Shown here: positions 5,880 to 46,144 of the stretch, in pieces | Layout: each line of letters opens with the position of its first letter | How positions within the stretch are numbered: position 1 is the stretch's first letter | Source of the DNA: Methylacidimicrobium fagopyrum | GTDB taxonomy: Bacteria > Verrucomicrobiota > Verrucomicrobiia > Limisphaerales > UBA11358 | Reading direction: 5' to 3' | Assembly: GCA_026225255.1 (NCBI GenBank) | Contig: JAMFSJ010000073.1 | Span: forward strand, 1-64,000 | Length of the DNA stretch: 64,000 nucleotides | The notes under the pieces: generated by a model | Told to the model about the DNA's origin: nothing | Databases searched by the model: none | The model's input: only the letters and a program-made list of their open reading frames with translations | Translations under genes and position numbers: made by a program

Positions 5880-6752
5880 TTAGAACCTTCCCTCTTTGTT
5901 CACTTCGTTCCCATCCCAATCAAACTCCATCGTGTTTCCTGCTCCTGATGCGTGGCGAACCACGTTGGATGACTCATCTATAATCTGCAAGGTCCAGCCG
6001 AATAACTGATAAACTCGACGTAACGCGCTGCGTCTCACCTAACGCGGAATCAAAGCCCGGCAGCGAGAAATTCCACTTGGAAATATAGTTGTCAAAGGTC
6101 ACTGGAATTTTTGCCGAGTTTCCGGCGCCGCTCTGCACGGTAGATGGAGTGTCGGTGGTTTCAGTGCTAGCAGTAGTTTCCACCACCACAAAAGTTTCAC
6201 GTGAACCGTTCGGCCATTCCGTGGTATTGATCATATAGCTGGCATTCCCAGCATCATCCGCGTCGGCAAATTCCACCTCCTCGCCATCTACGAAAAAATT
6301 TACGGAAATGATGGAATTCGTGGTGGCAATTTGAACATCTATTTCTACTTCGCCTGAAAAATTGGTTCCAGCAGCCAGATTGATAATTGTCACCACTGGT
6401 GGAACCAGTGTATTCGTGCCGGTCTGGGTGATGCGATAATATCGTTGCAAATCATCTTTCGGGTGCGTCAACGCCGGCTCCGTCCAATATTTTCCTGTTT
6501 CAAGAAACATGGTGTTTGTCCCCTAGGATGGCAAATTATCTGCCAACGTGCCCAGATGACAGTCCATGAAAATTCTTTTGCATATTCCACACAATAAATC
6601 GCATCGGTTTGGCTTTGCCAACGCAATTGAATCGCCCGTTCATCCCTAGTTTTGGCGGTCGTAAATCTTGACGGATTGATCTGTGCGTGACTATGAGGTG
6701 CAGATAAAATGAGCAGGGTTAACCCGATCACTCCGAGTTTGAAAGTTTTCAT
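5880..6752 (-). pseudogene. decayed secreted protein of the STNL/FYR-Ig type
   Basis: The original start is probably 6752, with a signal peptide (MKTFKLGVIGLTLLILSAP, then SHAQ). The first frame gives IQLRWQSQTDAIYCVEYA, then a frameshift near 6570 leads into LADNLPS, an in-frame TAG at 6523-6525, and GTNTMFLETGKYW plus DDLQRYYRITQTG. An Ig-like region follows (SVNFFVDGEEV). A second frameshift near 6010 leads into FGWTLQIIDESSNVVRHASG and EFDWDGNEVNKEGRF before a stop at 5880-5882. At least three lesions make it non-functional. The continuity of recognisable peptide across frames shows it was one gene. The ORF track shows it only as the pieces 5974-6510 and 6468-6827. Confidence 0.75.
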
Positions 6753-14225: not shown

Positions 14226-17200
14226 ATGAAGACCCTACTAAAAATCATCGGCGCTGTCGCGTTAGCCGGACTGGCGTCCCGCGCCTCCGCTCAGTTGCAA
14301 TGGAGTTCGTATGACACGAGCGGCAATCTGGTCGCGACCAATGTCGCGAGCGGTGGCGATCTGGCTTCCGGCGGCACGGTGACGTTCACCATTCCGGCGA
14401 ATACGCAATTATCCTTCGTGACCAAAAGTTTCACGCCGTTCAGCCTGGCGTCCGGTGGGGCCAAGCGAACCGTCACCTTTAATGTTTCCGTCTCCGCCGG
14501 TTTTGGCGGCGTCAATCAACGCACGATGGGTTGGGGGCTTTTCAATTCGACGAACACCGCCAGTTTCACGGACGACGTCGGCTACTTCGGACTGTGGACG
14601 GGCGCTTTGATTGAAACCTACGATCATCCGGCGGGCACGGCGAATCTGTTCGGCATTCTTTCATCGCCTTCGAATAAGTTAGGCCAAGGCAACAGCGACG
14701 CGGGCGCGCCGGCGGATGGGTTGACTTACACCAATCAAATCCAATTAGTCATGAATGCGGCGGCCAGTGGAATCAGTTTGGGCACGAGCAGTTCAACCAT
14801 CGCCGCCGCCGGTTTGGCGATGAATGGATTGAACGGCGCGACGAGCGTGGCGCATCGGTCTTACACGAATCCGGTGAATCCATTACTCGGCGGCCAAAGT
14901 TTATTCGATGAATTTGCGTTTATGTTCAATAACACTACGGCCAATCCGGTGACAGTGACTCTGAGTGCGATTTCGTTGGGCAATTCGCTAACGTGGGACG
15001 CGAGTGGCACCAACCCCGCCTCGCCGACCGACGGTTCCGGCAACTGGGGCGATGCAGCGGCCAACTGGACGAGCGGCGCGAACGGTGGCAGTGACAGCGG
15101 TTGGGCCACCGCGCCGGGCTATAGCGCGATCATTGGCGCGAATAACGGCGCGGCAGGCGTGATCACGATCACCAATACCGCGGGCGTGACCGTTTCCAAT
15201 CTTACTTTCAACGTGGCGGGCAGTGGTAATTATAACCTTGCCGGTTCCGCCATCCTACTCACCACGAACTCAACGATTACGGTGGCGAACGGCGTCACGG
15301 CGACGAACAGTTCGCAACTCGGCGGCATCGGTTTTACGAAAGCGGGCAATGGCACATTGGTATTATTTCCTTCTGTCGCGGCCACCAATGTCGGGGCAAC
15401 GACCGTCAATGCCGGATCGCTTTTTCTCGCGGCCACGGCCGTCAATAGTTTGAACGGCGATCTCATCGTGAACTCGGGCGCGGCGGTTCAGATTGGTGCC
15501 AGCTTGAGTATTCCGGCCGCCAACCGTTTTTTCATCAATGGCGGATCCGTGACCAACGTTTCGGGCAGCAACCCGACTTTGACTTATAACCTAATGGCCT
15601 TCGATAACGCCGGTTTCCTCGGTTCGGCCGGCCCGCAAATCGGCCAGTTGAATGTGACTAACTTTGATTTCCGTAGCGGCACGGAAGCCTTCGCTAAATT
15701 CCCCTCAACCATGACGACTAACTTCAGTGTTAAATCCACGCCGGGAACGATGATTGTGCAAAGTCGCGCCAACTCTTCCGGCGCGAACGGCATTGCCGGA
15801 TTGAAAATCAATGCCGGCACTTTCATTTGTGATTATGCGAATCCCGCGCCGAATAACGATTCGACCGGCGGCGCCAAATACATCAACACCGCGCCGATGA
15901 CGTTGGCGGGCGGCACGCTCTTCCAACGTTTCAGTGCGACGGCCAATCGCACGGAAACCGTCGGCGGCGTCTTGATCAATCCCGGCGCCACGACCGTCCT
16001 GCTGACGAATAATAGTCCAACGGCCATCAACTATACTTTCGCGCAAGGCGTGATCACGCGAAACGTCGGCGGCACAGTGGATTATTCTAGCGGCGGCCCT
16101 AGCACTGGCACCAAAGCGATCACGACCACCACGGTGAATAGTTCCGCCGGTATCCTAGGTGGTTATGCTACTTATGCTGGAACCGATTGGGCGATCGGCC
16201 CCACGATCAATGCCTACGCGGCTTACCTCACCAGCGCCGATCCAACCACGTGGGCGACGGCCAACAACATAAGTCTGACGGGAAATCCGACGGCCAATGT
16301 TCCCGATCTAACGACCATTAACACCTTAAAACTCGGCGGCACTTCGGCGCTGAGTCTCAACGGTTCATTAACCCTTTCGGCGGGCGGCTTACTCGCTACC
16401 GGCACGGGGGCAAACTCCATTTCCGGCGGCACGCTCTTGGGTGGCAGCGGTAGCGACCTTATTATTCATCAGTATAGTAGCGGCAATTTAACGATCAGCT
16501 CTACTTTGACCGATAACGGCAGCCCGACCTCGTTAACAAAATCCGGCGCTGGAAAACTAATCATCGCGGGCAATAACGCGCTGACCGGCACCAACTATCT
16601 CAACGGCGGCACCGTTGAAGTCGGTAACGTGTCACAACTCGCTGCCGGCCCAGTAGTGCTAAATAACGGTGCCTTACGTTATACCGGTTCCGATACCACC
16701 ATCACGCGTTCCATCACGCTGAATGGTATCGGCGGAACGATTGATGTGGCTGGCAGTGCAACGCTAATTCAAGTCGGCGCCATCGTTGGTGGCGGCGGTT
16801 TTAATTCGCCACTGACGCCCGGCTTGAACTTGGGCGACTGGGGCGGACTCACTAAGATCGGCAGTGGCACATTAGTATTATCTGCCAATAATACTTACAA
16901 CGGCGCGACTGTTGTCAGCAATGGTGTGCTCACAATCAATGGCACGAACTTGCTGACCGGCGCGAGCGGTCTGACGAATTATGCGGGCGGCGGCAGTGTC
17001 ACCGTTTATGGCGGCACGCTCGGGGGCGCCGGAGTTATTTCGGGCGCAGTGGACATCAAGAGTGGCGGCACTATTTCGCCCGGCAACAGTAGCGGCACCT
17101 TGACCCTGGGATTCGGCCTCACCGTGGAAAGCGGTTCCACCAGCCTTTTCCAAGTGACCAATAATGCCGCTGGCGATCTACTGACCATCCAAGGTAACTT

Positions 17201-20200
17201 AGTCATTCAGCCCAATAGCACACTGGCGATCAGTATCCTAGGCACCGCCCTGGAACCAACCACCAATGTCTTGCTCACTTACACCGGAGCTAAATCTGGT
17301 TCGTTCAATCCAACCGTCGTCGTCGTTAGTGGTAACCCGGATGGTTCGGTGACAGTGGACGACAGCACGCCCGGCCAGATCAAATTAGTAATCATTCCGC
17401 AAGTGGCCATCACGAGCCAGCCGACTGATCTCACCGTTTCGACCAATGCTCCAGCGACGTTCAACGTCATTGCGACCGGCACCGCCCCACTGGCTTATCA
17501 ATGGTATCGTTACGCCGGCCTCAATGACACGGCGCCCGTGGCGCAAACGAGCGCGACGAACGCCACCTTTACCATTGCCAACGCGCAGGCTTCTGATTCG
17601 GGATATTACGGCGTGATCGTGACTAACAGCTACAATTCCGTTACCAGCCGGATTGCGACTCTCATTGTCGGCAATATCATTCCGACCCTTTCCGGGCCGA
17701 CGAATAAGACCGTGATCGCCGGTAATAACATTACGTTCAATACTACCGTCGTCCTCGCCAATCCCGCACCGACCTTACAATGGCAGACCAACGGTGTGAC
17801 TGTTTTGGGCGCGACCAATTCGTCGCTGACGCTGAACACGGTTCCGTCAGCCTACGATGGCTTATCGGTCTCGGTCATCGCGACCAATCCCGCGGGTAGC
17901 ACGACGAACTCCGCTACCTTGAGTGTCATCGTAACCCCCGTTATTACGCCGCAACCGACCGGGCAGTCAGTGAATGTTGGCGCAACCGCAATATTTACTT
18001 CCGGCGCGACTGGGGTGCCAACGCCGACGTTACAATGGTATAAAAATAACACTTCTATCGCCGGACAAACTGGCGGCACCCTCACGATTCCCAATGCACA
18101 AGGCACCAATATCGCTAGTTACAAACTGGTAGCGTCAAATGCGGCGGGCTCCGTCACCAGTTCCGTCGTCACGTTGACGGTGAGCTCAACCACGCTCGTC
18201 TCAACGACGCTGGCTCCGGCCAATGGCGCGACGAGCGTCGGCTATGATACGCCGTTGTATATCACCTTCAACGCGCCGATCTCGATCATCAACTCCGGCA
18301 AGATTCGCATCTACAACGCAACGAATTCCACCACGCCAGTAGACACGATTGATATGAGCTCCAATAGCGCCGTGATCAGTAGCGGCATTGGTATCACGAA
18401 TAACATCCAGCCACACAGTTTATTCGCCGGCGATTCGCAAGTGATTAATTATTTTCCCGTGATTATCTCCGGCAACACCGCGGCGATTTATCCGCACAGC
18501 GGCGTGCTGACGAGTAACCAGACTTACTATGTGACCCTGGATAGCGGCGTAGTGGCGGATAGCACCGGCGCGTATTTTGCGGGTATCTCAAACCCCAACG
18601 CTTGGAGCTTCACCACTAAGTTGGCTGGGCCCGCTAATCCAACAAACTTAGTCGTGGCCGCCGATGGCAGCGGGGATTTCGTCACGGTGCAAGGCGCGGT
18701 GGATGCCATCGCGCCCGGCAATACTAACTACACGTTGATCAATATCCACGATGGGAATTACGTCGAGATTGTAAATATTTCAGGTAAAAACAATCTGACC
18801 TTGCGCGGTCAAAGCCGGCGCGGAACAACGATCGGTTACGCCAACAATAATAACCTTACTGGCACCACCGCCGCGCGCATGGCGTTCAAAGTTAATTCCA
18901 GCGACATCAAGCTAGAGAATCTGACGTTGACCAACGGCACGCCACAGGGTGGGTCCCAGGCGGAAACCTTGCTGATTTATAACAACGGCTTGCGCTGCGT
19001 GGTGAATAATTGCGATATCGTCAGCCGGCAAGATACCATTCTGATCAATGCCGGCACATCGCAAGGTTACTTCAATAACTGTCGCATCGTTGGTAACTTC
19101 GATTACGTTTGGGGTGTGGGCAGCGGTTACTTCAATAACTGTGTGTTCCATACCGTCACTAACTCGCTCTCGGGTTCGTATAACTTGACGGCGGCGCGCA
19201 CGCTTACGGCTGCAACCGTGAGCACGAATACTCCGTGGGTGAATCCGAACGGCACCTTGTTTTCTGCGAATGGATTTTCATTCGTGGGTTGCATCATTGA
19301 AGCGGATTCCGGCGTCACGAGCATTACTATGGCGGGTTCGAACGGCACCGTGGGCGGGCTGGATTCATGGGTCAATTGCCGCATTGATACCAACGCTTAT
19401 GTGAATCCCTCTACTGCACTGCCACCATCCAGTTATGTTCTCTGGCAATATCAAAATACGGATCTTACTGGCGTCAATGCCATCACCTTCACCAATCTCC
19501 AAACGATTGGCGTGACGAACAGTGACCCGCGCTTACTCGCGGCCACAAATGTTCCGGTCTGGTTTTATGGTTGGACGCCGCAGTTGGCGCCCAACATCAT
19601 CCGCCAACCGGCGAGTGAAACGAATATTGTTGGTGATACGGCAACCCTTACCGTGGGTGTCACGGGTATTCCCAACGCTACCTATCAATGGCAATTAAAC
19701 GGAACGAACCTTGATAGTTCAATCAACGCCACCGTCACCAACGCTACGCTCGTGTTGAACCACGTCCAGCTCACGGATGCGGGCGTCTATTCCGTCGTCG
19801 CCAGCAACCTCGCCGGCGCGGCAACCAGTGGCAACGCGATCCTCACGGTCTGGCCGAATACGGCGCCCACGCTATCGCCGGTTGCGGATCAAATCGTTAA
19901 TGTCGGCGTCACGATTAACCTCACCAACGTCGCCACGGATACCGAAGTGCCGCCGCAAACGTTGACCTTTAATCTGCTCAACGCGCCTGCGGGTGCCACG
20001 TTAGGTTCCAGCAACGGCGTCCTTAATTGGCGTCCGCCCGTTAGCGTCGCCAACACGACCAACCTTGTTTCCGTCGTCGTGACGGACAGTGGCACTCCGG
20101 GCTTAAGCGCAACGAATAGCTTTAAGATCGTCGTTAATCCGTTGCCTCAACCCACGGTCGGCACCGTTGCTTACGCCGGCGGACAATTCAGCTTAACCGT

Positions 20201-20372
20201 CACTGGTCAGGTCGGACCGGACTATGCCGTGCAAGCTTCCACCAACTTGACCGATTGGGTCACGCTCTTCATCACGAATTCGCCGACCGCGCCATTCAAT
20301 TGGGTGGATGCAAATACCAATGGCTTCAACCTGCGTTTCTACCGTGTAAAAGTCGGGCCGCCGTTGCCGTAA
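14226..20372 (+). CDS. giant secreted multi-domain pectinesterase-like protein
   Basis: This 2048-residue exoprotein begins with a signal peptide (MKTLLKIIGAVALAGLASRA). Residues 23-1055 are beta-rich and include autotransporter-type beta-strand repeats (GKLIIAGNNALTGTNYLNGG near 780; GTLVLSANNTYNGATVVSNG near 880). Three Ig-like domains follow at about 1058-1318 (typical AYQWYR, LQWQTNG, LQWYKNN). An SbsA-type Ig domain covers about 1320-1470, and a pectinesterase-like beta-helix covers about 1475-1788 (AADGSGDFVTVQGAVDAI; SQAETL; SRQDTIL; GNFDYVWG). Then come another Ig domain, a cadherin/He-PIG-like domain and a C-terminal STNLTDW ... RFYRV module. The QDT and FDYVWG motifs retain the catalytic acids. 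The usual LGRPW motif is not evident, so activity is uncertain. No outer-membrane barrel is present, so export must use another route. Confidence 0.88.
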   Translation: MKTLLKIIGAVALAGLASRASAQLQWSSYDTSGNLVATNVASGGDLASGGTVTFTIPANTQLSFVTKSFTPFSLASGGAKRTVTFNVSVSAGFGGVNQRTMGWGLFNSTNTASFTDDVGYFGLWTGALIETYDHPAGTANLFGILSSPSNKLGQGNSDAGAPADGLTYTNQIQLVMNAAASGISLGTSSSTIAAAGLAMNGLNGATSVAHRSYTNPVNPLLGGQSLFDEFAFMFNNTTANPVTVTLSAISLGNSLTWDASGTNPASPTDGSGNWGDAAANWTSGANGGSDSGWATAPGYSAIIGANNGAAGVITITNTAGVTVSNLTFNVAGSGNYNLAGSAILLTTNSTITVANGVTATNSSQLGGIGFTKAGNGTLVLFPSVAATNVGATTVNAGSLFLAATAVNSLNGDLIVNSGAAVQIGASLSIPAANRFFINGGSVTNVSGSNPTLTYNLMAFDNAGFLGSAGPQIGQLNVTNFDFRSGTEAFAKFPSTMTTNFSVKSTPGTMIVQSRANSSGANGIAGLKINAGTFICDYANPAPNNDSTGGAKYINTAPMTLAGGTLFQRFSATANRTETVGGVLINPGATTVLLTNNSPTAINYTFAQGVITRNVGGTVDYSSGGPSTGTKAITTTTVNSSAGILGGYATYAGTDWAIGPTINAYAAYLTSADPTTWATANNISLTGNPTANVPDLTTINTLKLGGTSALSLNGSLTLSAGGLLATGTGANSISGGTLLGGSGSDLIIHQYSSGNLTISSTLTDNGSPTSLTKSGAGKLIIAGNNALTGTNYLNGGTVEVGNVSQLAAGPVVLNNGALRYTGSDTTITRSITLNGIGGTIDVAGSATLIQVGAIVGGGGFNSPLTPGLNLGDWGGLTKIGSGTLVLSANNTYNGATVVSNGVLTINGTNLLTGASGLTNYAGGGSVTVYGGTLGGAGVISGAVDIKSGGTISPGNSSGTLTLGFGLTVESGSTSLFQVTNNAAGDLLTIQGNLVIQPNSTLAISILGTALEPTTNVLLTYTGAKSGSFNPTVVVVSGNPDGSVTVDDSTPGQIKLVIIPQVAITSQPTDLTVSTNAPATFNVIATGTAPLAYQWYRYAGLNDTAPVAQTSATNATFTIANAQASDSGYYGVIVTNSYNSVTSRIATLIVGNIIPTLSGPTNKTVIAGNNITFNTTVVLANPAPTLQWQTNGVTVLGATNSSLTLNTVPSAYDGLSVSVIATNPAGSTTNSATLSVIVTPVITPQPTGQSVNVGATAIFTSGATGVPTPTLQWYKNNTSIAGQTGGTLTIPNAQGTNIASYKLVASNAAGSVTSSVVTLTVSSTTLVSTTLAPANGATSVGYDTPLYITFNAPISIINSGKIRIYNATNSTTPVDTIDMSSNSAVISSGIGITNNIQPHSLFAGDSQVINYFPVIISGNTAAIYPHSGVLTSNQTYYVTLDSGVVADSTGAYFAGISNPNAWSFTTKLAGPANPTNLVVAADGSGDFVTVQGAVDAIAPGNTNYTLINIHDGNYVEIVNISGKNNLTLRGQSRRGTTIGYANNNNLTGTTAARMAFKVNSSDIKLENLTLTNGTPQGGSQAETLLIYNNGLRCVVNNCDIVSRQDTILINAGTSQGYFNNCRIVGNFDYVWGVGSGYFNNCVFHTVTNSLSGSYNLTAARTLTAATVSTNTPWVNPNGTLFSANGFSFVGCIIEADSGVTSITMAGSNGTVGGLDSWVNCRIDTNAYVNPSTALPPSSYVLWQYQNTDLTGVNAITFTNLQTIGVTNSDPRLLAATNVPVWFYGWTPQLAPNIIRQPASETNIVGDTATLTVGVTGIPNATYQWQLNGTNLDSSINATVTNATLVLNHVQLTDAGVYSVVASNLAGAATSGNAILTVWPNTAPTLSPVADQIVNVGVTINLTNVATDTEVPPQTLTFNLLNAPAGATLGSSNGVLNWRPPVSVANTTNLVSVVVTDSGTPGLSATNSFKIVVNPLPQPTVGTVAYAGGQFSLTVTGQVGPDYAVQASTNLTDWVTLFITNSPTAPFNWVDANTNGFNLRFYRVKVGPPLP

Positions 20373-34664: not shown

Positions 34665-35480
34665 GTGTATTTGGAATTCTACAGTTTGAAGCAGGCCCCG
34701 TTCGACATCACGCCGAACCCGCGCTTCCTTTTCCACAGCACGAAACATCGCGAGGCGTTCAATCATCTGCTCTACGGTATCCGCGAACGGAAAGGTTTTG
34801 TCCAACTGACGGGCGAAGTCGGCGCGGGCAAAACGACGTTATGCCGCGCGTTGCTGGAGCAGTTGGATGAAAAATATTCCACCGCGCTGATTTTGAATCC
34901 GGTGTTGAACGGCGATGAATTAATGAAAGCCATCGCGACAGAATACGGCCTCGACGTGAAAGGCAAAGATCGTCTGGAAACGATTTCGGCGATCAGTAAT
35001 TTTTTATTAACGCAAACGTTGGCGGGTAAAGAAACGGTGCTGATCATCGATGAAGCGCAGAATTTAACGGAAGATTTGTTGGAACAAGTGCGATTGATTT
35101 CCAACATCGAAACGGACGACCGCAAATTGTTGCAAATCGTTTTGATGGGCCAGCCGGAATTGCGCGACCGCCTCAACAGCCCGCGCTTGAAACAACTGCG
35201 CCAGCGCATCACGGTGCGTTATCATTTGTCGGCGTTGACGCGTGCGGAAGTTGGCGAATATATCCGCCATCGGCTCACTTTGGCCGGGGCGAGCGGTGGT
35301 CCGACGTTTACCGCGCCGGCGGTTTGGCGCGTGTTTCGTTACAGCGGCGGCGTGCCGCGATTGGTCAACGCGGTTTGCGACAAAGCTTTGCTGGCCGGAT
35401 TTGTTGAACGCAGCCAGCAAATTAATTATCGAATGATCGGCCGCGCCATCCGCGAGCTCGAAGGCCACATCCACGCATGA
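34665..35480 (+). CDS. ExeA/GspA-like AAA ATPase
   Basis: The 271-residue ATPase resembles GspA/ExeA, which with GspB/ExeB helps insert the type II secretin through the peptidoglycan. It starts with GTG (34665). Walker A is GEVGAGKTTLCRALL (about residues 46-60), Walker B is VLIIDEAQNL near 126, and sensor-like segments are QIVLMGQPELRDRL and SGGVPRLVNAVCDKALL. Unlike full GspA it lacks a C-terminal membrane and peptidoglycan-binding part, so it is the ATPase half only. It overlaps the next gene by 4 bases. Confidence 0.88.
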   Translation: MYLEFYSLKQAPFDITPNPRFLFHSTKHREAFNHLLYGIRERKGFVQLTGEVGAGKTTLCRALLEQLDEKYSTALILNPVLNGDELMKAIATEYGLDVKGKDRLETISAISNFLLTQTLAGKETVLIIDEAQNLTEDLLEQVRLISNIETDDRKLLQIVLMGQPELRDRLNSPRLKQLRQRITVRYHLSALTRAEVGEYIRHRLTLAGASGGPTFTAPAVWRVFRYSGGVPRLVNAVCDKALLAGFVERSQQINYRMIGRAIRELEGHIHA

Positions 35481-35995
35481 GCGAAATCAACGACGCCTTA
35501 AAACGCGCGCGCCAAGCGCCAGCGGATAAGTCCAATGAGCCGCGGGCGATCTATCTGCCGCCACGGCCAGTTGAGAAAACGCCGACAGTTTTGGGGTGGC
35601 TGATTCCGGCGTTTATCGTAGTGCTGGTCGTGGCGGCGGTTTTCTTTATCGGTTGGGCGGCGACGCATCGGCATGCGCAAAAAGTAATCGCGGTGCCAAA
35701 TCGCGCCGCGCCCGTGCCGCCCGTCGCGGATATTGCGCCGACGGTTTCGCCCAGCGCAACGCTGACAACTGCCCCCACGCCACTACCCGCGCAGATAGTT
35801 GCGCCAGCAACGCCTCCACTACCAAAGTTGCAGGGGATTTTTTATTCGCCCAATGCGCCGACCGCGATTTTGGGTGGAAAAACAATTGGCCTTGGCGACA
35901 AATTCGGTGATTATCGCGTGCAACACATTTCCCCAACTGCCGTAACGCTCGTTGATGCCAGCGGCCGGGAAATCAAAATCGAGATAAATCACTAA
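35477..35995 (+). CDS. GspB-like membrane protein
   Basis: The 172-residue protein begins with MSEINDALKRARQ, has one membrane helix (about residues 38-62), a long Ala/Pro/Val linker and a C-terminal domain (KLQGIFYSPNAPTAILGGKT onward). This is the GspB layout, the partner of the ATPase whose gene it overlaps by 4 bases. The C-terminal domain is related to the partial protein at the window start. The pair may support secretin or pilus assembly for the pseudopilins at 45-47 kb, though secretin genes are not in the window. Confidence 0.8.
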   Translation: MSEINDALKRARQAPADKSNEPRAIYLPPRPVEKTPTVLGWLIPAFIVVLVVAAVFFIGWAATHRHAQKVIAVPNRAAPVPPVADIAPTVSPSATLTTAPTPLPAQIVAPATPPLPKLQGIFYSPNAPTAILGGKTIGLGDKFGDYRVQHISPTAVTLVDASGREIKIEINH

Positions 35996-35998
35996 GTT

Positions 35999-36703
35999 AT
36001 GTTGCTGCGGAAATTGTTTTCGACTTCGCCCAGCGGCGCGCGCGCCCTGCCGTTCATTCTTTTCGTCGCGCTTACGTTTTGTCAGGGCCAGTTTGGTGAC
36101 GCTTCGGCTTACTGGTTTTACTTCGCCAAAACGCTCGTCGGCCTTTGGTTGATTTTTGAGATGCGCCCGTTCGTCACGGAAATGCGTTGGGCATTCAGTT
36201 GGGAAGCGGTCGTAGTTGGCATTGCGGTCTTCGCGGTTTGGGTGGGCATCAATGGCGAATGGACAACGCAAAATACGCTTTGGATTAAACTTGGTCTTTC
36301 GCATCCGGCCACGAAGCCGGCTTTAGTCTGGAATCCGAATGAACAATTCGGTTCCGGTTCCGCGTTGGCGTGGTTTTTTATCGCGGTGCGGATTTTGGGT
36401 TCCGCCTTCGTCGTGCCGCCGCTGGAAGAAGCTTTTTACCGTTCGTTTTTATATCGCTACATCGCCAATCAAAATTTTTTATCCGTGCCGTTGAATCAAT
36501 TTCTGTCCGTGCCGTTTTTTACAACGATTTTGATCTTTGGCTTGTCGCATAACGAATGGCTCGCCGGCATTATTTGCGGGGCCGCGTTTCAATGGCTTGT
36601 GCTCCGCAAAAATCGTCTCGGTGACGCGATGACCGCGCACGCGATCACAAATTTTCTACTCGGCGTGTGGGTGGTCTGGCGTGGCGCATGGAATTTTTGG
36701 TAA
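35999..36703 (+). CDS. exosortase-associated CAAX protease-like membrane protein
   Basis: The 234-residue polytopic protein belongs to the CPBP (type II CAAX) family and looks like the subgroup linked to exosortase systems. Catalytic motifs are PPLEEAFYRSFLYR (EExxxR), FGLSHNEW and AHAITNFLLGVW (HxxxN). It begins 3 bases after the GspB-like gene, so it is co-transcribed. In exosortase genomes these proteases are thought to process or support sorting; the role is inferred. Its gene is 19 kb from the exosortase at 55770. Confidence 0.82.
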   Translation: MLLRKLFSTSPSGARALPFILFVALTFCQGQFGDASAYWFYFAKTLVGLWLIFEMRPFVTEMRWAFSWEAVVVGIAVFAVWVGINGEWTTQNTLWIKLGLSHPATKPALVWNPNEQFGSGSALAWFFIAVRILGSAFVVPPLEEAFYRSFLYRYIANQNFLSVPLNQFLSVPFFTTILIFGLSHNEWLAGIICGAAFQWLVLRKNRLGDAMTAHAITNFLLGVWVVWRGAWNFW

Positions 36704-36730: not shown

Positions 36731-39700
36731 TTACGGGGATACGACGCGATAGAATTGCGCCGGATTCGTCGCTGCAAGATCGGTATAAGTCATCACGCTC
36801 GCGCTAGCTGTGCCGTTGGTCAAAACCCACCAATTCGTCAGCGGCAGCAGTAAATTCGTGCTGCTCAAAACGCGAAAACTTTGGCCACTCGCGCCACTGA
36901 AGTTGAAGGTGAAAACACCCGGACCAACGATGCCGTAGCTCCCGATCACCGGCGTGATGGTGGCCGTATAAATTAAATTCAACGAATTGCCGTTGGTATT
37001 CACACTGAAGATTCCAGCGAAGGAATTACTAAAATGACTCACGTCCATCACGAACGTTGACGGATTGAAATGCGTGATGCCGCCGCTGGTCGTCGCCAGC
37101 GTCCAAACATAATTGCTGCCAAACGCAAATCCGGGCAGACCACTGCTGGAAATTAATTGAATGGTAAACGGATTATTCGTCGTCGCTGCCAGATCAAGCG
37201 CGCCATTGATAGCTAATAAGTCTTGGCCGAAAATGTTAGTGGCATTCGTTAATTGAAAGCCTAGGGCGCCACCGGAGTTCCATGTTTCACTGCCCGTTGT
37301 CAAAGTGCCCACGCTGTTATTGCCCGGTGAAATCAAGCCGTTCACGATCACCGAACCGGTGACCGCGCCGTTGCCGCTCAACGTCGCGCCCGCCGCCGCC
37401 GTCACGGTGCCGGCCAGCGAACCATTGAGGACTAACACGCCATTACTGATAATGGTATTGCCCGAATAAGTATTCGCTCCGGCTAAAATTAATACGCCGG
37501 AACCGGTCTTACTCAGGGCGCCTGCGCCAACAAAACTTGCAGTCACCGTTGCGGTTTGATTGCCGCTCACGTCAACGGTATGGGTGCCGGAAATATTGCC
37601 GGTATTGGCGAGATTGAGATTGAGTCTGTTCACGCTTAAATCGGAATTCGTTAGATTGCCCAACGTGCCGTCCGCCCAAATAAAAGTTCCCGTGCGACTG
37701 CCGCCGCTATTCGCGCCCGCTTGCAAAATCTCGGTTCGCAACGTGCCGCTATCGAGTAACAAAGTTCCACTCGCCGTCGCCGTGCCCGTGCCGGTGGCGG
37801 CAATATTGTTGCCCAAAGTGATCGTGTTCGCCGCGACGTTGCCACCTTTCAATTCAAACGTGCCGTTGCCGGTGCGCGAATAGGAGGAGCCGCTGGTAGC
37901 ACCTTGCGCCTGGCCGATGGTCAAATTACTCGTGGTCAAAGTGCCGCCGCCCATCACAAAGTTAGCCGTGGTGACCCCATCACGATCGGAAGCATTGCCG
38001 AGTAATAACGTGGTTAACTGCGCGTCTAGCGTGCCATTGCTGACATTGAAGGTCGCGGTCGTGCTTTGTGCGGCGAAATTATTTTGCCAGCCGACGGTCA
38101 TCGTCGCCGGACTAATGCCATCGCTGGCACGAATCGTGACGGATGGATTGGTCAGGCCGGACGCAAACGCAACGCTGCTGGATTGTTTTTGGAAACCGAG
38201 ATTGATCGTATTCGCGTTGAAGTTATTGATCTGACCTAAAGTCAAAGCGCCGACGAACCCTGGCTGGCCAAGGCCGTTGAATCCCGCGACCAATAAATTC
38301 GCCGCCGTGATGTTATTCGTCGCTGCCAACTTCAACGTCGCCGTGCCCGCACCGGACGTGGCAAAGGTATTGGGTCCGACGCTGAACGTATTGCCCGGCG
38401 AATTGAAAGTGAAGCTACCCAATCCCGACAAGTCCAACGTCACACTAGTATGATTGGGCGAACCGAAATACCAATTACTAGAACTTAACTGTAACGTCCC
38501 GCCGCCGGTCACCGCCGCCGCTACGCCATCGTTCACCACCGGCGCATTCATTGGCTGCACGCCGCCAGCGAGATTCAGCGTCGTGGTGTTTTGGATGTCC
38601 GCGAAATTAATGGCGACGATATTCGTCCCGAGTTGGTTAGTGCTGCTCAAGCTCACGGTGCCGGCACCCAAAATTGTCAATGTCGTTGGCGTCGGTGCCG
38701 TCACGATGCCGCCGATGGTCAATGTTTGATTCGTCGGGACGATCCAGCATTGACCGTCCAATAAATTCAATCCGGCGATGATCGTCGCTGAAGCATTCGC
38801 GACAATGCCATTGCTGATGCTTAATGGCCCGGCTCCGGTCAATTTATAGCTGACACTGGCGACGGGATTAAAAGTCAGTTGCGCCACGGTATGCGCGCTG
38901 AGCAATGTCACTGTTCCGGCCGTGCTGCCCGCGCCAAAAATCGCGCCATAGCCAGTCGTGTCGTCCCAAGCCACATTGCTGCCCATACCGCCCCACCAAT
39001 TATTGCCGCCGGAACTCCAGAAGCCACCGCCATCTTGTGCGCCGGTCGTAAACGGGCCCATGTCCCAAGTTAGATTTGATCCGGAATAGTCGAATACCGC
39101 TTGGAACGATTTGCCATGCGCGCCGCTGGTATTGACCGTCAGAATAATCGTCGGGCTTAACTGCACCACGGTAACTCCGGCGTCGGCGGACACGACACTG
39201 CTGGCAGAACGATTCAGCGTCACAGTGATAGAACTCGTGTTCGTCTGCGTCGGATCGGCGATGCCGACGGATAAGCCGCCCAGCGTTTCCAGCGTGATGA
39301 CGGAAGACTTTTTGTTCACGGTGATCAAGTCGGCCGAATTATTTCCATCCAACCAGAAGTTAGCCGCGACTACGCCCAGCGCCGGTTTGCTGACCGCTTG
39401 AACGGTCGTCGTATTCGCCAGCACGATGATGTCAGGATTCGCCGCATAAGTGCTCATGGCGCTCGCCGTAAAGTTGGGCAGAACAACATAGGCATAAGTT
39501 GAGTTCACTGGTTTAAGACCGTGACTGAACCAGAGTTTAAGATAGTTATCGGTCAACAAATTTGTGGTGGAGCTGGTGTAAGTGCCGTTATTGATCTGTG
39601 ACCAACTATTGGTATTCGCGACGAATGACATTTGCAAATTCGTTGCGCCGCCGGGAAAGTAATAGCCGCCCACGCCATCCAAAGCACACCACGAAACACT

Positions 39701-41275
39701 GGCGGGTTGTGCGTTCCAACCGATGGTCGGCGGATAACTAACGCCGTTCACGGTGAAGTTATTGGTCGGAGATGTTCCGAGCCGACGATCTTCGACCGTG
39801 GTATCCACGCCGTAGTTATCGCCGCAAGTCACACCGGCACCGAGACAGACCATTTCGTTATCCAACATGAACCACGATTTTTTAGCCGTGAGCGTGGTTT
39901 TAACCGCGGCCAATGACATGCCGCTCACCCCATAAGTATTCGCCACTTGCGCGCCGCCCACCCAGTTCTGTGTGGTCTTCGCCGCTGAGTTGGCAGCATT
40001 GACCCGCGTATTCGTTACGACCGTAGTTCCGGGTAAATGATACGGATCCACCGTCGGCCAAAAGTCGCCGGTAAATTGCGTTTCGGTATTTCCTAAGTAG
40101 AGATAAGTCATGCCGTCCCCGGTGAACCAGCCGTGTAGATTTTCGCCGTTGATGCTTTCGTAAGAGGTGATGCGCGTGGAGGACAGACTCAAGCCGATGC
40201 CGAAATTATTTCGCCACGCAACCGCACGATCCATATTGGCAAATTGAAATTGTTGCGGCGATAAAAACGGTGCGTTCGCCCAATTATTAAAAGCGGTCGC
40301 CGTGGCGGACGGCGCAAATTTGGCGATGCTGCGAACGCTCGCAATCGTGCCCGCACCGTCGGACGATTCCGTTTCGCCAAATCGGGAAATCGCCCGGCCA
40401 CGCATCATATCCATCATCGCGCCATGATAGACCAGCGGTTCAAAAGAATTGGAAACCCAACTATAAACATTATTCAAGTTCGGATCGGTGATCTGCCAGG
40501 TCGAGCCGTTCAGCAGATTGACTAACTGAGCGACATCGCTCAACAAGATATTGCCGTAAGTTCCCGTATAGGCGATGACAGTGTGCTGCACGAACGAGCC
40601 ATCGGTATAAAATCCATCGCCACTAGTGACATAGGGAAAAACCGGGCTTAGGTTGGTCTGGCCAAAAGTCATCTTGGCGCTGTTCTTGCCAATAATTCCC
40701 CGGATCAAAACCACCTTGCATATATCCGTCAAATTAGCCCCCGTGCCAAAAGCATTGTGGGGCGGACTATGCCCGTCAATCGCGGCGGTGCAATTGGTGA
40801 TTTGCGTTCCCGTCAGCGCCGGATACATCAGCGTCAGGATGTTATTAAAAGTTTGCGGTGAACCAATTTCCCAATCCCACCAGTTATTATATTCCGTCGC
40901 GGTCGCCGTGTAACTATTGGCGACCATCCAATCGAGGCTATTCGTGATGGCACTGGCTAGACTGGGGTTGGCAAATAAGGAAGAGGCGGGCGCCGCCCAC
41001 GCTTGGGCCATGCTATAGAGTCGTCCGTAAGTAGTCGTCACGTTGGCGGAAACGCTGCCGAGCGGCAGATCGCTCCACAGATTAGTGCGTGTGGCGTTGG
41101 TATTCAGGCTGGTCCAATAAGTGGTCGCCGTAGTGACATTGTAGCCGCTGCCTAACTGGGTTTGCCAATAGGAACGCAAGGTATCGAATTGATCGGCGCG
41201 CAGAGTATTTGCGAGCAGGAAAATAAATAAAAAAACTCGCCAGCGAAAGGCGGCTCCACCTTTCGGCCAACTCAT
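36731..41275 (-). CDS. secreted PL8 polysaccharide lyase fused to beta-strand repeats
   Basis: The start at 41275 is favoured because AAGGA lies 10 bases upstream and a signal peptide follows (MSWPKGGAAFRWRVFLFIFL); ATG at 41293 is an alternative. It gives 1514 residues. The N-terminal alpha-toroid and beta domains are those of family PL8 (hyaluronate/chondroitin/xanthan lyases). The likely catalytic Asn lies in TGANLTDICKVVLIRG, His and Tyr in DGSFVQHTVIAYTGTYG, Arg in AMMDMMRGRAISR and Glu in NGENLHGWFTGDGMTYLYLG. From about residue 770 on come autotransporter-type repeats (GVLILAGANTYSGNTIISNG). The protein ends in an SSTNLLLPLTNWWV ... FYRVVSP module. It probably cleaves an acidic polysaccharide at the cell surface. 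No barrel domain is present. Confidence 0.9.
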   Translation of the reverse strand: MSWPKGGAAFRWRVFLFIFLLANTLRADQFDTLRSYWQTQLGSGYNVTTATTYWTSLNTNATRTNLWSDLPLGSVSANVTTTYGRLYSMAQAWAAPASSLFANPSLASAITNSLDWMVANSYTATATEYNNWWDWEIGSPQTFNNILTLMYPALTGTQITNCTAAIDGHSPPHNAFGTGANLTDICKVVLIRGIIGKNSAKMTFGQTNLSPVFPYVTSGDGFYTDGSFVQHTVIAYTGTYGNILLSDVAQLVNLLNGSTWQITDPNLNNVYSWVSNSFEPLVYHGAMMDMMRGRAISRFGETESSDGAGTIASVRSIAKFAPSATATAFNNWANAPFLSPQQFQFANMDRAVAWRNNFGIGLSLSSTRITSYESINGENLHGWFTGDGMTYLYLGNTETQFTGDFWPTVDPYHLPGTTVVTNTRVNAANSAAKTTQNWVGGAQVANTYGVSGMSLAAVKTTLTAKKSWFMLDNEMVCLGAGVTCGDNYGVDTTVEDRRLGTSPTNNFTVNGVSYPPTIGWNAQPASVSWCALDGVGGYYFPGGATNLQMSFVANTNSWSQINNGTYTSSTTNLLTDNYLKLWFSHGLKPVNSTYAYVVLPNFTASAMSTYAANPDIIVLANTTTVQAVSKPALGVVAANFWLDGNNSADLITVNKKSSVITLETLGGLSVGIADPTQTNTSSITVTLNRSASSVVSADAGVTVVQLSPTIILTVNTSGAHGKSFQAVFDYSGSNLTWDMGPFTTGAQDGGGFWSSGGNNWWGGMGSNVAWDDTTGYGAIFGAGSTAGTVTLLSAHTVAQLTFNPVASVSYKLTGAGPLSISNGIVANASATIIAGLNLLDGQCWIVPTNQTLTIGGIVTAPTPTTLTILGAGTVSLSSTNQLGTNIVAINFADIQNTTTLNLAGGVQPMNAPVVNDGVAAAVTGGGTLQLSSSNWYFGSPNHTSVTLDLSGLGSFTFNSPGNTFSVGPNTFATSGAGTATLKLAATNNITAANLLVAGFNGLGQPGFVGALTLGQINNFNANTINLGFQKQSSSVAFASGLTNPSVTIRASDGISPATMTVGWQNNFAAQSTTATFNVSNGTLDAQLTTLLLGNASDRDGVTTANFVMGGGTLTTSNLTIGQAQGATSGSSYSRTGNGTFELKGGNVAANTITLGNNIAATGTGTATASGTLLLDSGTLRTEILQAGANSGGSRTGTFIWADGTLGNLTNSDLSVNRLNLNLANTGNISGTHTVDVSGNQTATVTASFVGAGALSKTGSGVLILAGANTYSGNTIISNGVLVLNGSLAGTVTAAAGATLSGNGAVTGSVIVNGLISPGNNSVGTLTTGSETWNSGGALGFQLTNATNIFGQDLLAINGALDLAATTNNPFTIQLISSSGLPGFAFGSNYVWTLATTSGGITHFNPSTFVMDVSHFSNSFAGIFSVNTNGNSLNLIYTATITPVIGSYGIVGPGVFTFNFSGASGQSFRVLSSTNLLLPLTNWWVLTNGTASASVMTYTDLAATNPAQFYRVVSP

Positions 41276-41336
41276 GAAACAAAAATCCTTCATAACTTTT
41301 CTACAACGACGACTACGGACGCATGATGACGCGGGG

Positions 41337-41424
41337 CTGTGATCCGCAGCAACCTCCAAATGCTCGAGACATAATCATTGAATCCCCAAACGCTCGAACC
41401 GGCAGACATTACTGCGGATCACAG
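41337..41424. promoter_or_regulatory. 13-bp inverted repeat upstream of the PL8 lyase
   Basis: CTGTGATCCGCAG (41337-41349) and its exact complement CTGCGGATCACAG (41412-41424) flank 62 bases that also hold two related words (CAAATGCTCGAGA and CAAACGCTCGAAC). The element lies about 60-150 bases before the start of the lyase gene and could bind a regulator. Confidence 0.4.
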
Positions 41425-41529: not shown

Positions 41530-44500
41530 TTATTGCACAACTTTGGTGCTAAAGAACGCCGCGGGTTGCGCCGGATCAATGACGTTCGTGTAACTGAATG
41601 AGCCATTCGCATTGAATGAATTGGTGCTCAATACCGTCCAGTTCGTCAACGCTGTCGCGAGGTTCGTCGTGGTCAGCACAAGGTAGTGGAAGCTCGTGCC
41701 GCCATTTAGATTCGTGCCGGTCAAGATCACGTTGCCGCCGGAGATCGTGACACTGGTGATGTTCGCGGGGGCCGTCGGATTCGAGCTGGCCATGATGCCG
41801 ATGACGCCGCTGGTATAGAGCGCCGAAGTATCCCAAGCCAACGTGGAGGGTAATGCGGGCAAGTTATAATTGGTGAAGACGCCGGTGACGGTGGAACTCC
41901 AATTCGCGATTTTCCATCTATCGCCAATCGTCCAAGCGGTCAGGTTATTGAGATTGCTAACCGTCAATGTGGCGTTGGTGATGATGACTTGCGTTTGCGC
42001 CTGGAGCACGTCCGCGGCGGCGGCATTGCCGGTGTTATCGCCGGCACCGACACCACTGAATAAATCGACGAGCAAGGTGCTGCTAGCATTGAACCTCAAG
42101 GCAGCGGTCGTATTGGTGACGGTAAAGCTCTTACCAGTCGTATCGCCCGCATTGCCCACAGATAATTTGCCGTTGATAGAAACGCCGTTCGTGCCTTCGT
42201 AGATGGAACCGTTGCCGGCGAGCGTTCCCGCCGCCGCCACGGAAACACCGAACGGATTCAAACCAGTGCCGGTAGGGTTATTGATCGCCAAGGTGCCAGC
42301 GTTGATTGAAGTGGCGCCGGTATTCGTATAAAAACCCGACGAAGCCCCGGTGAAGTCGCCGGTGAAGATTTCTGTGCCGGTGCCATTCTTGATCACGCTC
42401 GGCGTCCAGCCGCCGCTATTGGTGGTGATAATGCCGCTGAACGTGCCGGAGCCATTACCATTGCCGAGACTCAAGCTTGGAATATAAGCCGCACCCGGGC
42501 CGGCAATGACATTGCCTGCGCCGATCAAGGCGTTGAACGTCGGGGAGTTGACATCGCCGAGTTGCGTGCCGGCGGCCAAGTTGATGCTGGTATTGGCGGC
42601 GAGCGTGGCGTTGACATTGCACAGCGTCGTGCCCGAGGTTCCCGGTAAAACATAGATGTTGCCCGTAAAGGAACAGGCACCCGTCTGTAATTTTACACCG
42701 CCACCACCCAGCACCGTTACATCGCCGGTGCCGGTGATGCCGCCTTGGATCATGAACGTATTGAGAGCGCTATTGGCATTGCTGAACGTAATCCCGCGTT
42801 GCAATACGATCGGACCGTTATAGGTAACGCTGGTGGAACTGCTCATATTTGCAATGACTGCTGTGCCCGTGCTGCCAGCAGCGGTTGTCACCGGATTAAC
42901 TGCGGATACGCCGCCGCTAAATCCAAGCGTCGTCACGTTCGTGCCCGTATTGGCATCTCCCAAAGTCACCCCGCCGGTGCCGAAGGCGGTTGCGCTGCCA
43001 GCTTGAACGGTGCCGGCACTAATTATTGTGCCTTCACTAAAACTATTCGCGGAAGAAATCAGTAATGACCCCGAACCTTGCTTGAGTAAAAAGGCATCGG
43101 TCAAGCCGCCACCGCTACTACTGGCGAACGTGTAATTATTTACATTGTTGGAAACGGTGAGGTTGTTGACTACTAATTGACCTACGAGATTGACTGCCGT
43201 CTGGCTGGCCGAATTATTAAAAACAGCGTTATTGCCGGCGCTAAAATTGGCGCTGCTGCCGCCGTTAAGCCAATTTGCCGTCGTGGTATCCCAATCACCA
43301 CTGACGTTACCTTGCCAGACGAGATTAACAATACTGCCACCGCTCGGGACAAAAGTCACCGTGATGAGATTGGGGGTGGCGGTGCTGACGGAAGCCGTGT
43401 AGAGACCATTGGGGGCAATCACATTCAATCCCGCCGCCGAACCGGTCAAGGTTCCATTGTAAGCAATCAATGTGTAAGGCACGTTAACTTGGACTGGACC
43501 ATGGAAAGCCCTTAAATTGACTGTTGCCGCGCCTTGACTCAAATCCAGATTTCCCGCGACCGTGATCAAATCGCTCACGCCGGCGGCATTTGTATTCATG
43601 TCCATGTTGATAATGGCAGCTCCTGGCGTAAAATTGCCGTTGATGGCCAGGGTGGCGGCGATGCCGATGGTCGAAACATTTAAGGTAACCGAGGCGGCAC
43701 CGCCATTCAGACTTAAACTACCATTGATATCTGGCGCGCTGGTATTGTTGGTGTGTCCGGCAACCAAAGTTTGAGGATAATTTACATTGGCACCCAACGT
43801 GAATATTTGACCACTAGCATCAAACGAGCTGACATCCAAAGTGGTGCCCGAACTCATGGTTATGGTTGAGCACAGAGGATCAGAAGTGGCTATATCACTA
43901 TAAAATCCCAGCGCAATATGGGCATTGGCGGTGATAGTCAAATTGCTGGTGGTATTAATTGGCTGGTTGAACACCCATGTTCCAGGGCCGTTAACTTGCA
44001 AAGTCCCGCCCCATTGTCCGTTGGGAGCGCCATTATTGGCACTATTATAGACTCCAATCGGTTGATTAAATGTATTGGTGCCGGTAGAAGTGCCACCAAA
44101 GATTGTTGGAAAATTCGTTGGCAGCAGGCTGCCGTCGGTAAAGGTAAATAAGCCATTAAATATCAAGCTCGAATTATTCGGGCTGTTATTATTCAACGTG
44201 GTCGTCCCAGTATTCAGACTTTGCAAATGAAGCGGCCGGTCGGTAGTGCCGTTGTTTGTTCCCACGTATGTAATGGTCGCGGGATAACCCGTATTTAAAG
44301 CACCGATATTAATAGCACCTATGCCCGCTCCCAATGCGCTATTCTGACCACCCAAAGCGAGACTGAAATAAGCCAACGTTCCCGAAATATTAACCGGGCC
44401 AGTGAAACTATTATTAGTATTCATCAAATAAAGCACCCCTTGACCGTTGCCCCCAGCGGTCTTGGTTAGCCCCCCGCTACCGGATAAAACTCCGCGCAAA

Positions 44501-44922
44501 TAAAGATTGTCACCGGTGGCATTTTGGGTGATTGACGGCGTTACGCTCAAAACACTGTCGAGGTTCCAATTACAATTTCCAGCCACGTTCGCATTAAAGG
44601 TGCTGGTGGTCAATGTCACTGGATTCCCACTAATATTCCAAACCCCGTTGGTAAGAGTGATCGCCCCAAGACTCAACCCAGTAATATCATTAAAATTGGT
44701 GGTAAGTTTTGTGCCGGCAAACGTCGCGGCACTTCCACTTGTAATTGCAGTGCCCCCCCAATTGGCGGCATCACTCCAATTACTGCTCGTCGTGCTCCCA
44801 CCATTCCAAGTGCTGGCGTGGGCAGACAAAGAAAATCCGAGAATCAAAGTGACGGCTGCGGCAGTGCTGTCACTTAGGAAAAAACGGCATTTATTTCCAA
44901 TTTTATGAAGTTGATTTATCAT
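41530..44922 (-). CDS. secreted autotransporter-type beta-strand repeat protein
   Basis: The 1130-residue protein has a signal peptide (ending near LGFSLSAHA) and starts its mature part with STWNGGSTTSSNWSDAANW, a typical opening of these proteins. Passenger repeats include LLKQGSGSLLISSANSFSEG and SVIKNGTGTEIFTGDFTG. No catalytic domain is visible. The C-terminus carries the shared module (TTTNLATALTNWTVLSTNSF, then AAFFSTKVVQ) in place of a beta-barrel. It is probably a long surface or matrix protein. It lies between the PL8 lyase and the pseudopilins on the same strand. Asn, Thr, Gly and Ser dominate, as in beta-helices. Confidence 0.85.
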   Translation of the reverse strand: MINQLHKIGNKCRFFLSDSTAAAVTLILGFSLSAHASTWNGGSTTSSNWSDAANWGGTAITSGSAATFAGTKLTTNFNDITGLSLGAITLTNGVWNISGNPVTLTTSTFNANVAGNCNWNLDSVLSVTPSITQNATGDNLYLRGVLSGSGGLTKTAGGNGQGVLYLMNTNNSFTGPVNISGTLAYFSLALGGQNSALGAGIGAINIGALNTGYPATITYVGTNNGTTDRPLHLQSLNTGTTTLNNNSPNNSSLIFNGLFTFTDGSLLPTNFPTIFGGTSTGTNTFNQPIGVYNSANNGAPNGQWGGTLQVNGPGTWVFNQPINTTSNLTITANAHIALGFYSDIATSDPLCSTITMSSGTTLDVSSFDASGQIFTLGANVNYPQTLVAGHTNNTSAPDINGSLSLNGGAASVTLNVSTIGIAATLAINGNFTPGAAIINMDMNTNAAGVSDLITVAGNLDLSQGAATVNLRAFHGPVQVNVPYTLIAYNGTLTGSAAGLNVIAPNGLYTASVSTATPNLITVTFVPSGGSIVNLVWQGNVSGDWDTTTANWLNGGSSANFSAGNNAVFNNSASQTAVNLVGQLVVNNLTVSNNVNNYTFASSSGGGLTDAFLLKQGSGSLLISSANSFSEGTIISAGTVQAGSATAFGTGGVTLGDANTGTNVTTLGFSGGVSAVNPVTTAAGSTGTAVIANMSSSTSVTYNGPIVLQRGITFSNANSALNTFMIQGGITGTGDVTVLGGGGVKLQTGACSFTGNIYVLPGTSGTTLCNVNATLAANTSINLAAGTQLGDVNSPTFNALIGAGNVIAGPGAAYIPSLSLGNGNGSGTFSGIITTNSGGWTPSVIKNGTGTEIFTGDFTGASSGFYTNTGATSINAGTLAINNPTGTGLNPFGVSVAAAGTLAGNGSIYEGTNGVSINGKLSVGNAGDTTGKSFTVTNTTAALRFNASSTLLVDLFSGVGAGDNTGNAAAADVLQAQTQVIITNATLTVSNLNNLTAWTIGDRWKIANWSSTVTGVFTNYNLPALPSTLAWDTSALYTSGVIGIMASSNPTAPANITSVTISGGNVILTGTNLNGGTSFHYLVLTTTNLATALTNWTVLSTNSFNANGSFSYTNVIDPAQPAAFFSTKVVQ

Positions 44923-45029: not shown

Positions 45030-45824
45030 TTAAGGGGTTGCCGTCGGCCAAGCGGCGGCCGCACTTCCGCGTCCGCCGGCACTTAATGTTGGCAGGTCGC
45101 TTTGATAAATGTATAAAGGCCAGTCAGCACGCCATGAGTTGACAAAAAGTAATTTTTCCAACTTATACCATGAGGCTGACCCGTCCACCATCACTTCATT
45201 GGCCCCATCTGGACATCCTGCATTAGCCCTTTTATGCGGTGGGTTTGGTGCCCAAGCGCTGGTTCCATTAGGTTTTGCCACATTGTCCGCTGCCAAGACC
45301 CAACTCGCTTTTGAAGAGCTTAATTTAACCGGGCTGTAGGAAGGTCCAGTGTAAGCTCCGTTATTCGCCCAATAAGCTACGCCGCCATAATATTGGTAAC
45401 TGATACTCCATTGCGGCGGGGTGACATTGGCATCATAAATGGGATTCCCTCCTCCCAACGAAGGGCACGCCCAGATGGAAGCCGTATTGGTTTGAATACC
45501 CAAACCTGTGGAGGTAAGAGCGCCCGCTGCCGGCTCATTGATGGCCAGACAATTATAGGGGCCGGGGTCATTGTGCGAACCGGTAGGATTCCCAGTATTG
45601 CGCGCTGAAGCGACATAATCATTATTGTCACCCGCATAGATATTCATGCCGACACCTATTTGGCGAAGATTATTCACACAGGCAATGCGTTTGGCCTTAT
45701 CCTTTGCCCGCGCCAACGCGGGCAATAACATTGCCGCCAAAATCGCAATGATGGCGATAACGACTAATAATTCGATGAGCGTGAAACCTGATGCCCGCCC
45801 TTTGAGTGCCCCATTTTGTTTCAT
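45030..45824 (-). CDS. pseudopilin-like protein with type IV prepilin signal (copy 1)
   Basis: From the start at 45824 ([20 protein letters not shown]) the 264-residue protein has a class III signal. Cleavage would fall before the Phe of GFTLIE, and the helix [17 protein letters not shown] follows. Residues [18 protein letters not shown] are typical of the large Verrucomicrobiota/Planctomycetota pseudopilin family. The C-terminal [20 protein letters not shown] fits its DG-containing end. It would be processed by a prepilin peptidase and sit in the inner membrane or a pseudopilus. A paralogue lies 320 bases upstream on the same strand. Confidence 0.87.
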
Positions 45825-46144
45825 AATTTTATGCCAGCTGTTCCCCGCATTACCCAAAAATAAATCTAATCAAGTTTTAGCAACAATATGTAAATCCGTA
45901 TAGGGCATGAATATGCTCAGGTAGACAAATTCGGTGCTCAGCTAAATTCACCGCCGATACGAATTAAGTCGGAAAAATAGAAAACAAGGCGTCATAACCA
46001 ATCTGAGCCTTCACGGCATCCTGCCTGCCGGATCGAGAGTGGTTGGGCGTTCAAGCTGGGAGCGTTTTTGTCATCAGCCAAACTCTCAAATAGGTCGCCG
46101 AATGATAATTAATTAAACTGCTAAATTCGTCAAATAGCCCGGGT
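45825..46144. other. gene-free spacer between the two pseudopilin genes
   Basis: No gene is seen in these 320 bases. At about 45897-45916 the minus strand has CATATTCATGCCCTATAC, matched upstream of the other pseudopilin gene at about 47000-47017 (CATCTTCATGCTCTATGC). It is either a shared promoter or regulator site, or a leftover of the duplication. Confidence 0.5.

Follow-up and report, generated by a model that had tools for sequence, protein, structure and literature searches.

A C-terminal beta-sandwich module on unrelated exported proteins of Methylacidimicrobium fagopyrum and its relatives, with a possible role in type II secretion

The stretch of DNA analysed here, hereafter the window, consists of the first 64,000 nucleotides of contig JAMFSJ010000073.1 of Methylacidimicrobium fagopyrum (assembly GCA_026225255.1; 3.92 Mb in 79 contigs, 86% complete, called below the own genome). 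As listed in Table 1, it carries the genes of three large exoproteins: a pectinesterase-like protein, a protein resembling the polysaccharide lyases of family 8 (PL8) and a protein of 1130 residues. A preliminary description of the window had reported that the three end alike, had suggested that the common end may be a surface-attachment or export domain specific to this group, and had hinted that it replaces the PEP-CTERM motif for an exosortase encoded nearby. The three quoted ends are present in the window sequence, and their comparison showed that they form a single domain of about 65 residues, termed the module in what follows. The interval initially assigned to it, 19980-20372, does hold the module of the pectinesterase-like protein but is too long, since the module covers only about 20139-20369. 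A regular expression applied to the window detected one of the three copies; a profile search was required for the rest.

Table 1. Genes and modules of the window (positions are those of the window; strand + or -)
Feature	Position	Strand	Remarks
2048-residue pectinesterase-like exoprotein	14226-20372	+	signal peptide, PATR repeats, Ig domains, pectinesterase domain, C-terminal module
C-terminal module of the pectinesterase-like exoprotein	20139-20369	+	six predicted beta strands; chain stops 8 residues past FYR
1542-residue PL8 lyase-like exoprotein	36731-41359	-	polysaccharide lyase family 8 domains, PATR repeat, C-terminal module
C-terminal module of the PL8 lyase-like exoprotein	36734-36964	-	profile match 36740-36958, E 1.3e-20
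1130-residue exoprotein	41530-44922	-	PATR repeats and C-terminal module; PL8 gene next, same direction
C-terminal module of the 1130-residue exoprotein	41533-41790	-	profile match 41536-41775, E 1.0e-15
Pseudopilin-like gene	45030-45857	-	N_methyl, weak DUF1559; 107 bp upstream of the 1130-residue module gene, same strand
Second pseudopilin-like gene in the same run	46145-46942	-	
Exosortase, EpsH family	55770-56873	+	PF09721, 1.6e-40; context only
EpsI/DUF3485 protein	56870-57601	+	context only
PEP-CTERM-type CAAX-protease-related protein	35999-36703	+	TIGR03008, above cut-off; context only
Frame-shifted gene	5974-6752 (start 6752)	-	signal peptide, then marginal module-like segment ending QRYYRITQTG (6447-6418)

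Used as a lone query, the pectinesterase end gave 33 matches in the own genome (best non-self E 2e-22), and the PL8 and 1130-residue ends occupied the same alignment columns. An alignment of 29 own-genome ends, A1, has the consensus GxFxLxxxGxxGxxYxVQxSTNLxxW...TD......RFYRV, in which one Trp is invariant and F-Y-R nearly so; in the T-N-L group (T35, N36 and L37) the first and last residues are invariant and N is conserved in at least 90% of the sequences. The A1 profile found 80 matches in the own genome at E<=1, of which 73 were at E<=1e-5, so that the existence of a shared C-terminal module was amply borne out. The scores of the pectinesterase-like, PL8 and 1130-residue proteins were 87.9, 75.0 and 59.3 bits. 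These three copies are part of A1, and it is therefore the single-sequence search that is free of circularity. A six-sequence subset, A2 (A1 being too diverse), served solely as the query of a back-translation search; one of its sequences was 2 residues short. Pfam and NCBIfam contained no family matching the module members, save for isolated chance-level scores, and no published description of the module was found in the open-licence full texts searched. C-terminal domains tagging exported proteins are known as such, but neither Pfam and NCBIfam nor the papers searched yielded this particular family, its extent or the pairing with pseudopilin genes described below.

About 7 kb were examined around each own-genome match. 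The module is a single family, usually present as one copy per protein and placed at the very end of exported proteins that are otherwise unrelated. It lies 0-8 residues from the stop codon in 69 of 75 own-genome open frames and within 8 residues of the end in 120 of 127 proteins from other genomes (80 named loci plus the loci of the phylum search described below); with the widened profile, also described below, 89 of the 95 modules whose end is known stop at most 10 residues from the C-terminus. The own-genome exceptions are two partial matches with tails of 26-27 residues and four proteins with tails of about 93-108 residues. One of the four is a YHYH protein (Pfam); the other three (L096, L100 and L110) are paralogues similar, by eye, to di-haem cytochrome c peroxidases, with the module internal, 93-107 residues from the end. 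One own-genome protein has three tandem modules, the last of them terminal. The final residue is itself constrained: it is Pro or Gln in 76% of the module proteins of the own genome and in 80% of those of other genomes, versus 16% of the other proteins at the same loci (P about 1e-28 and 1e-32, respectively), and it mostly falls 3 to 6 residues past FYR. A signal peptide was recognized in 82 of 89 module proteins versus 153 of 327 other genes, by a simple and lenient rule, applied to the background set with a shorter window; the module proteins failing it have truncated or borderline starts. Partner domains are varied (Ig, LamG, PATR, LRR, kelch, GH18, GH25, astacin, kumamolisin). The module is neither equally common at internal positions nor a feature of cytosolic proteins, the outcomes that would have contradicted the preliminary description.

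The family extends beyond the ends with STNL. Genes adjoining those of pseudopilins often end in F-Y/F-R without it, for instance ...LQSANVNGPWVTN...FYRAQQ, and an alignment of 12 such ends matched A1 with an hhalign probability of 95.5 (E 1.5e-8). Iteration united the two sets into a widened family of 96 genes. Since these lie within the 0.94 Mb of the genome that were examined, extrapolation gives about 100 module genes or more genome-wide. The profile was also counted across the Verrucomicrobiota, as had been proposed. Within the order, 113 of 116 genomes have the module, and the copy number exceeds 40 in many of them (the best 49 candidates per genome were scored). In a phylum-wide sample, at least 97 of 289 genomes have it at E<=1e-5, counts in this sample being lower bounds because the best 19 candidates per genome were scored. 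The named matches belong to Limisphaerales, Pedosphaera, 'Verrucomicrobia subdivision 3' and other Verrucomicrobiota; judged by them, the module is found mainly in the window's own order, Limisphaerales or 'subdivision 3'. Single module genes were also seen on contigs assigned to Nomurabacteria and Taylorbacteria (L189 and L211); the neighbours of the one at L211 resemble, by eye, genes for a pilus-assembly ATPase and GspF.

The AlphaFold2 model computed from 57 aligned sequences (pLDDT 89.8) has six strands, at residues 6-13, 16-22, 29-34, 40-45, 53-57 and 67-72. In this confident model the module is predicted to be a small Ig/Fn3-like beta sandwich. T-N-L sits in the turn joining the third and fourth predicted strands, and the chain ends within about 10 residues of the last one, so that the seven-strand arrangement of Fn3 domains (A-B-C-C'-E-F-G; the naming of the module strands is our own assignment) appears to be incomplete. 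The list of Foldseek matches in the PDB is rich in Ig and Fn3 domains, the best TM scores being 0.69 for an Ig domain of PECAM-1 and 0.68-0.69 for the pectate lyase Pel3, within which the Fn3 domain is the natural match. Comparison with a viral fold library added nothing, and the Pfam Fn3 profile had no match among the A1 members. In profile-profile comparison, the widened module alignment matched the Fn3 repeats of the same genomes over strands B-F (probability 88.8, E 2.5e-6). These verrucomicrobial repeats, of the GGPY type, are the likely ancestor of the module; they differ from it in possessing strand G, in their internal and often repeated placement, and in not ending with FYR. We infer that the module is an Fn3 descendant that ends after strand F and has no strand G.

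A possible link to the type II secretion system (T2SS), absent from the preliminary description, is new. In the window, the two pilin-like genes precede the 1130-residue and PL8 protein genes on one strand (Table 1). The own genome contains a T2SS operon (L296) with genes for the secretin GspD and for GspE, F, G, H and K-like proteins; judged by eye, other loci hold what may be a second, incomplete set and a set for type IV pili. About 65 own-genome genes encode a prepilin N-terminus. For 28 of the 54 pseudopilin genes that could be placed, a same-strand module gene lies within 300 bp, versus about 2-3 expected (P<1e-20; the expectation comes from a simple binomial, not from a whole-genome permutation, and assumes 3300 genes in all, 95-150 of them with the module). 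The module gene is upstream of the pilin gene in 20 pairs and downstream in 10, and of the 39 same-strand pilin neighbours within this distance that have at least 450 residues, 29 carry the module. Three other genomes of the order gave 23 pilin-module pairs versus about 1 expected, from coordinates alone. In the phylum sample, every module-bearing genome has both pseudopilins and an exosortase, in line with the earlier expectation that genomes with the module share a common export system. Very large pseudopilin expansions, of about 100-300 prepilin-like candidates, were observed in genomes of families f17, f22, f33, f35 and f42, in which no module was detected.

The best explanation of these observations is that the module is a mobile C-terminal domain tagging Sec-exported proteins in Verrucomicrobiota; the shared end, together with the adjacent secretion-pilus genes, suggests that it marks them for export. 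Of the roles that such a tag could play, the one that we tentatively favour, with a chance somewhat short of even, is recognition for export through the T2SS. It is put forward because of the terminal position, the end residue and the gene pairing, taken together with three precedents. In Pel3 and PelI, which are T2SS substrates, loop 3 of the Fn3 domain, between strands C and C', is a key secretion signal, and T2SS substrate recognition is thought to involve folded surfaces (PMC7949064). In Myxococcota there are tags leading to T2SS-dependent surface display, and the C-terminal MYXO-CTERM and GlyGly-CTERM tags are borne by dozens of proteins whose crossing of the outer membrane is T2SS-dependent (PMC11980579). 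The third case is a PulG-like pseudopilin of another Verrucomicrobiota isolate; it has 67 homologues and a link to genes for alginate degradation, and the T2SS was proposed to export the lyases (PMC13274419). Two features expected of T2SS substrates are present as well, the Sec signal peptide and a T2SS encoded in the genome.

The likeness to these systems is partial. The Fn3 domain of Pel3 and PelI is, like the module, a small sandwich fused to an exoenzyme (that of Pel3 has a TM score of about 0.69 to the module model), and by our strand assignment T-N-L would be in the turn corresponding to the C-C' signal loop (PMC7949064). However, the Pel3 domain is N-terminal, seven-stranded and present on few proteins, whereas the module is C-terminal, apparently without strand G, and present on about 100 proteins per genome; there is no significant sequence match between the two. 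MYXO-CTERM and GlyGly-CTERM are short motifs followed by a transmembrane helix, and are cleaved, whereas the module has no C-terminal helix.

If the module does act through the T2SS, the protein would be exported by Sec and would then fold in the periplasm, where the module would offer one of the surfaces by which the T2SS apparatus, with the pseudopilin encoded next door, recognizes it; the T2SS would then carry it across the outer membrane. T-N-L, in the turn that joins strands three and four, and the end strand with FYR would form the contact. We are less sure of these steps than of the descent from Fn3. A more specific version, which we regard as improbable, is that an Fn3 fold deprived of its last strand leaves strand F as an open edge at the C-terminus, and that a T2SS component, perhaps the adjacent pseudopilin, contacts or completes this edge by strand complementation, reads the cargo as folded and releases it outside; the module would then be a general and portable T2SS recognition domain served by cargo-specific pseudopilins.

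Several points weigh against a T2SS role. The two loci L189 and L211 are assigned to Patescibacteria, which have no outer membrane; these module genes may reflect transfer or a binning error. No module was detected in the pseudopilin-richest genomes of the phylum (100-300 candidates), so that pseudopilins can expand without it. The 80 named loci hold only three pseudopilins and their pairing is not significant (P=0.07), in a set that was picked by one subfamily and has too few pilins to judge. The pairing may also be due in part to both kinds of gene belonging to exoprotein loci. Retention of the module does not require a terminal position, since some proteins hold it internally and a few hold it in tandem. 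As to the fold, the Foldseek E values are weak (the best, 2e-3, is for a de novo protein and the nearest natural fold is at 0.04; none is below 1e-3), and the STNL alignments alone do not match Fn3 significantly (probability at most 2.3), which makes the Fn3 match dependent on the widened set.

Two serious rivals have to be considered. The first, unlikely but better placed than the others, is that the module is an extracellular binding or attachment domain, which after export keeps the enzyme or fibre attached to the surface of the cell, to exopolysaccharide or to the substrate. The Ig/Fn3-like sandwich is often a binding fold, the partner proteins are mostly polymer-degrading and adhesive, tandem copies exist, and there is a weak profile similarity to a glucanase/chitosanase domain (E 0.012). 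Binding modules are, however, usually found at either end or in the middle of proteins and in several copies, whereas the module is terminal in about 94% of cases with a constrained last residue, and the pairing with pseudopilin genes is not predicted. The second rival, to which we give scarcely less credit, is a passive structural cap that closes long beta-rich exoproteins and shields their C-terminus from proteases, without any partner. Conserved residues can indeed be structural, the upstream domains are unrelated, and a terminal Pro or Gln would fit resistance to carboxypeptidases. A cap predicts neither the adjacent pseudopilin genes nor the conserved T-N-L turn, and caps would also be expected on the large exported proteins of related lineages devoid of the module.

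The part of the preliminary description that did not stand is the replacement of PEP-CTERM for the nearby exosortase, i.e. the module as substrate of an exosortase or CAAX protease encoded in the window; the rest, an export-associated module of this group, holds in that it is order-wide and C-terminal on exported proteins. The three proteins do lack PEP-CTERM, as had been stated, but the own genome encodes 16 PEP-CTERM proteins above the Pfam cut-off (PF07589), none of them in the window. Similarities are real: PEP-CTERM is also C-terminal and present on many proteins per genome, with an exosortase encoded nearby; the window has exosortase, EpsI and PEP-CTERM-type CAAX genes; 5 of the 16 PEP-CTERM genes directly adjoin a module gene on the same strand (L061, L067, L099 and other own-genome loci); and an exosortase occurs in each of the 97 module genomes of the phylum sample. 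Yet one also occurs in about 117 sampled genomes without detected module (the cross-table was made by reading two lists), so that the co-occurrence is confounded by lineage. PEP-CTERM is a motif of about 24 residues with a membrane helix and a basic tail, whereas the module is a folded domain that has none of these features: a C-terminal hydrophobic helix is absent from 94 of 95 module proteins (the other has a helix-like segment). None of the 16 PEP-CTERM proteins, which are the likely substrates, carries the module; the two are kept apart. The module was thus rejected as an exosortase tag, a role that we consider very unlikely. Lastly, the sorting domains of types A and B of the type IX secretion system follow the same logic, being terminal, Ig-like, of some 70 residues and borne by dozens of unrelated exported proteins, but they need a translocon whose SprA component was not detected above cut-off in 12 module-rich genomes, and no NCBIfam sorting domain matched the module members; this idea was rejected, since the missing translocon goes far to refute it.

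How the T2SS recruits its substrates is described as elusive (PMC7949064). If the T2SS reading is right, a single terminal domain present on about 100 unrelated exoproteins per genome, often with a pseudopilin gene of its own, would make the choice of T2SS cargo testable, and it would label a large part of the proteins secreted by an abundant and mostly uncultured order of polymer degraders. Because the domain is in neither Pfam nor NCBIfam, module proteins are today annotated piecemeal.

A few minor observations concern the surroundings. In the frame-shifted gene, for which the preliminary description had pointed out a similar segment, the module-like part is N-terminal, right after the signal peptide, and both halves of the gene match the module profile marginally (2.8 and 0.3 bits). 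An ATPase of the window comes near the PEP-CTERM ATPase model (TIGR03015, 313.8 bits, just under the cut-off of 324.5); with the CAAX protein (34665-36703 together) it lies about 20 kb from the exosortase, the system being split over two places. Elsewhere in the own genome, six PEP-CTERM genes of about 190-280 residues each are clustered in about 5 kb (C10:41295-46416). Just beyond the window, on the same contig, a 1338-residue protein has a terminal module (C29:64030-68043, - strand, E 5e-20), and another terminal-module protein (C29:69254-70192, - strand) is encoded next to a pseudopilin gene and a PEP-CTERM gene.

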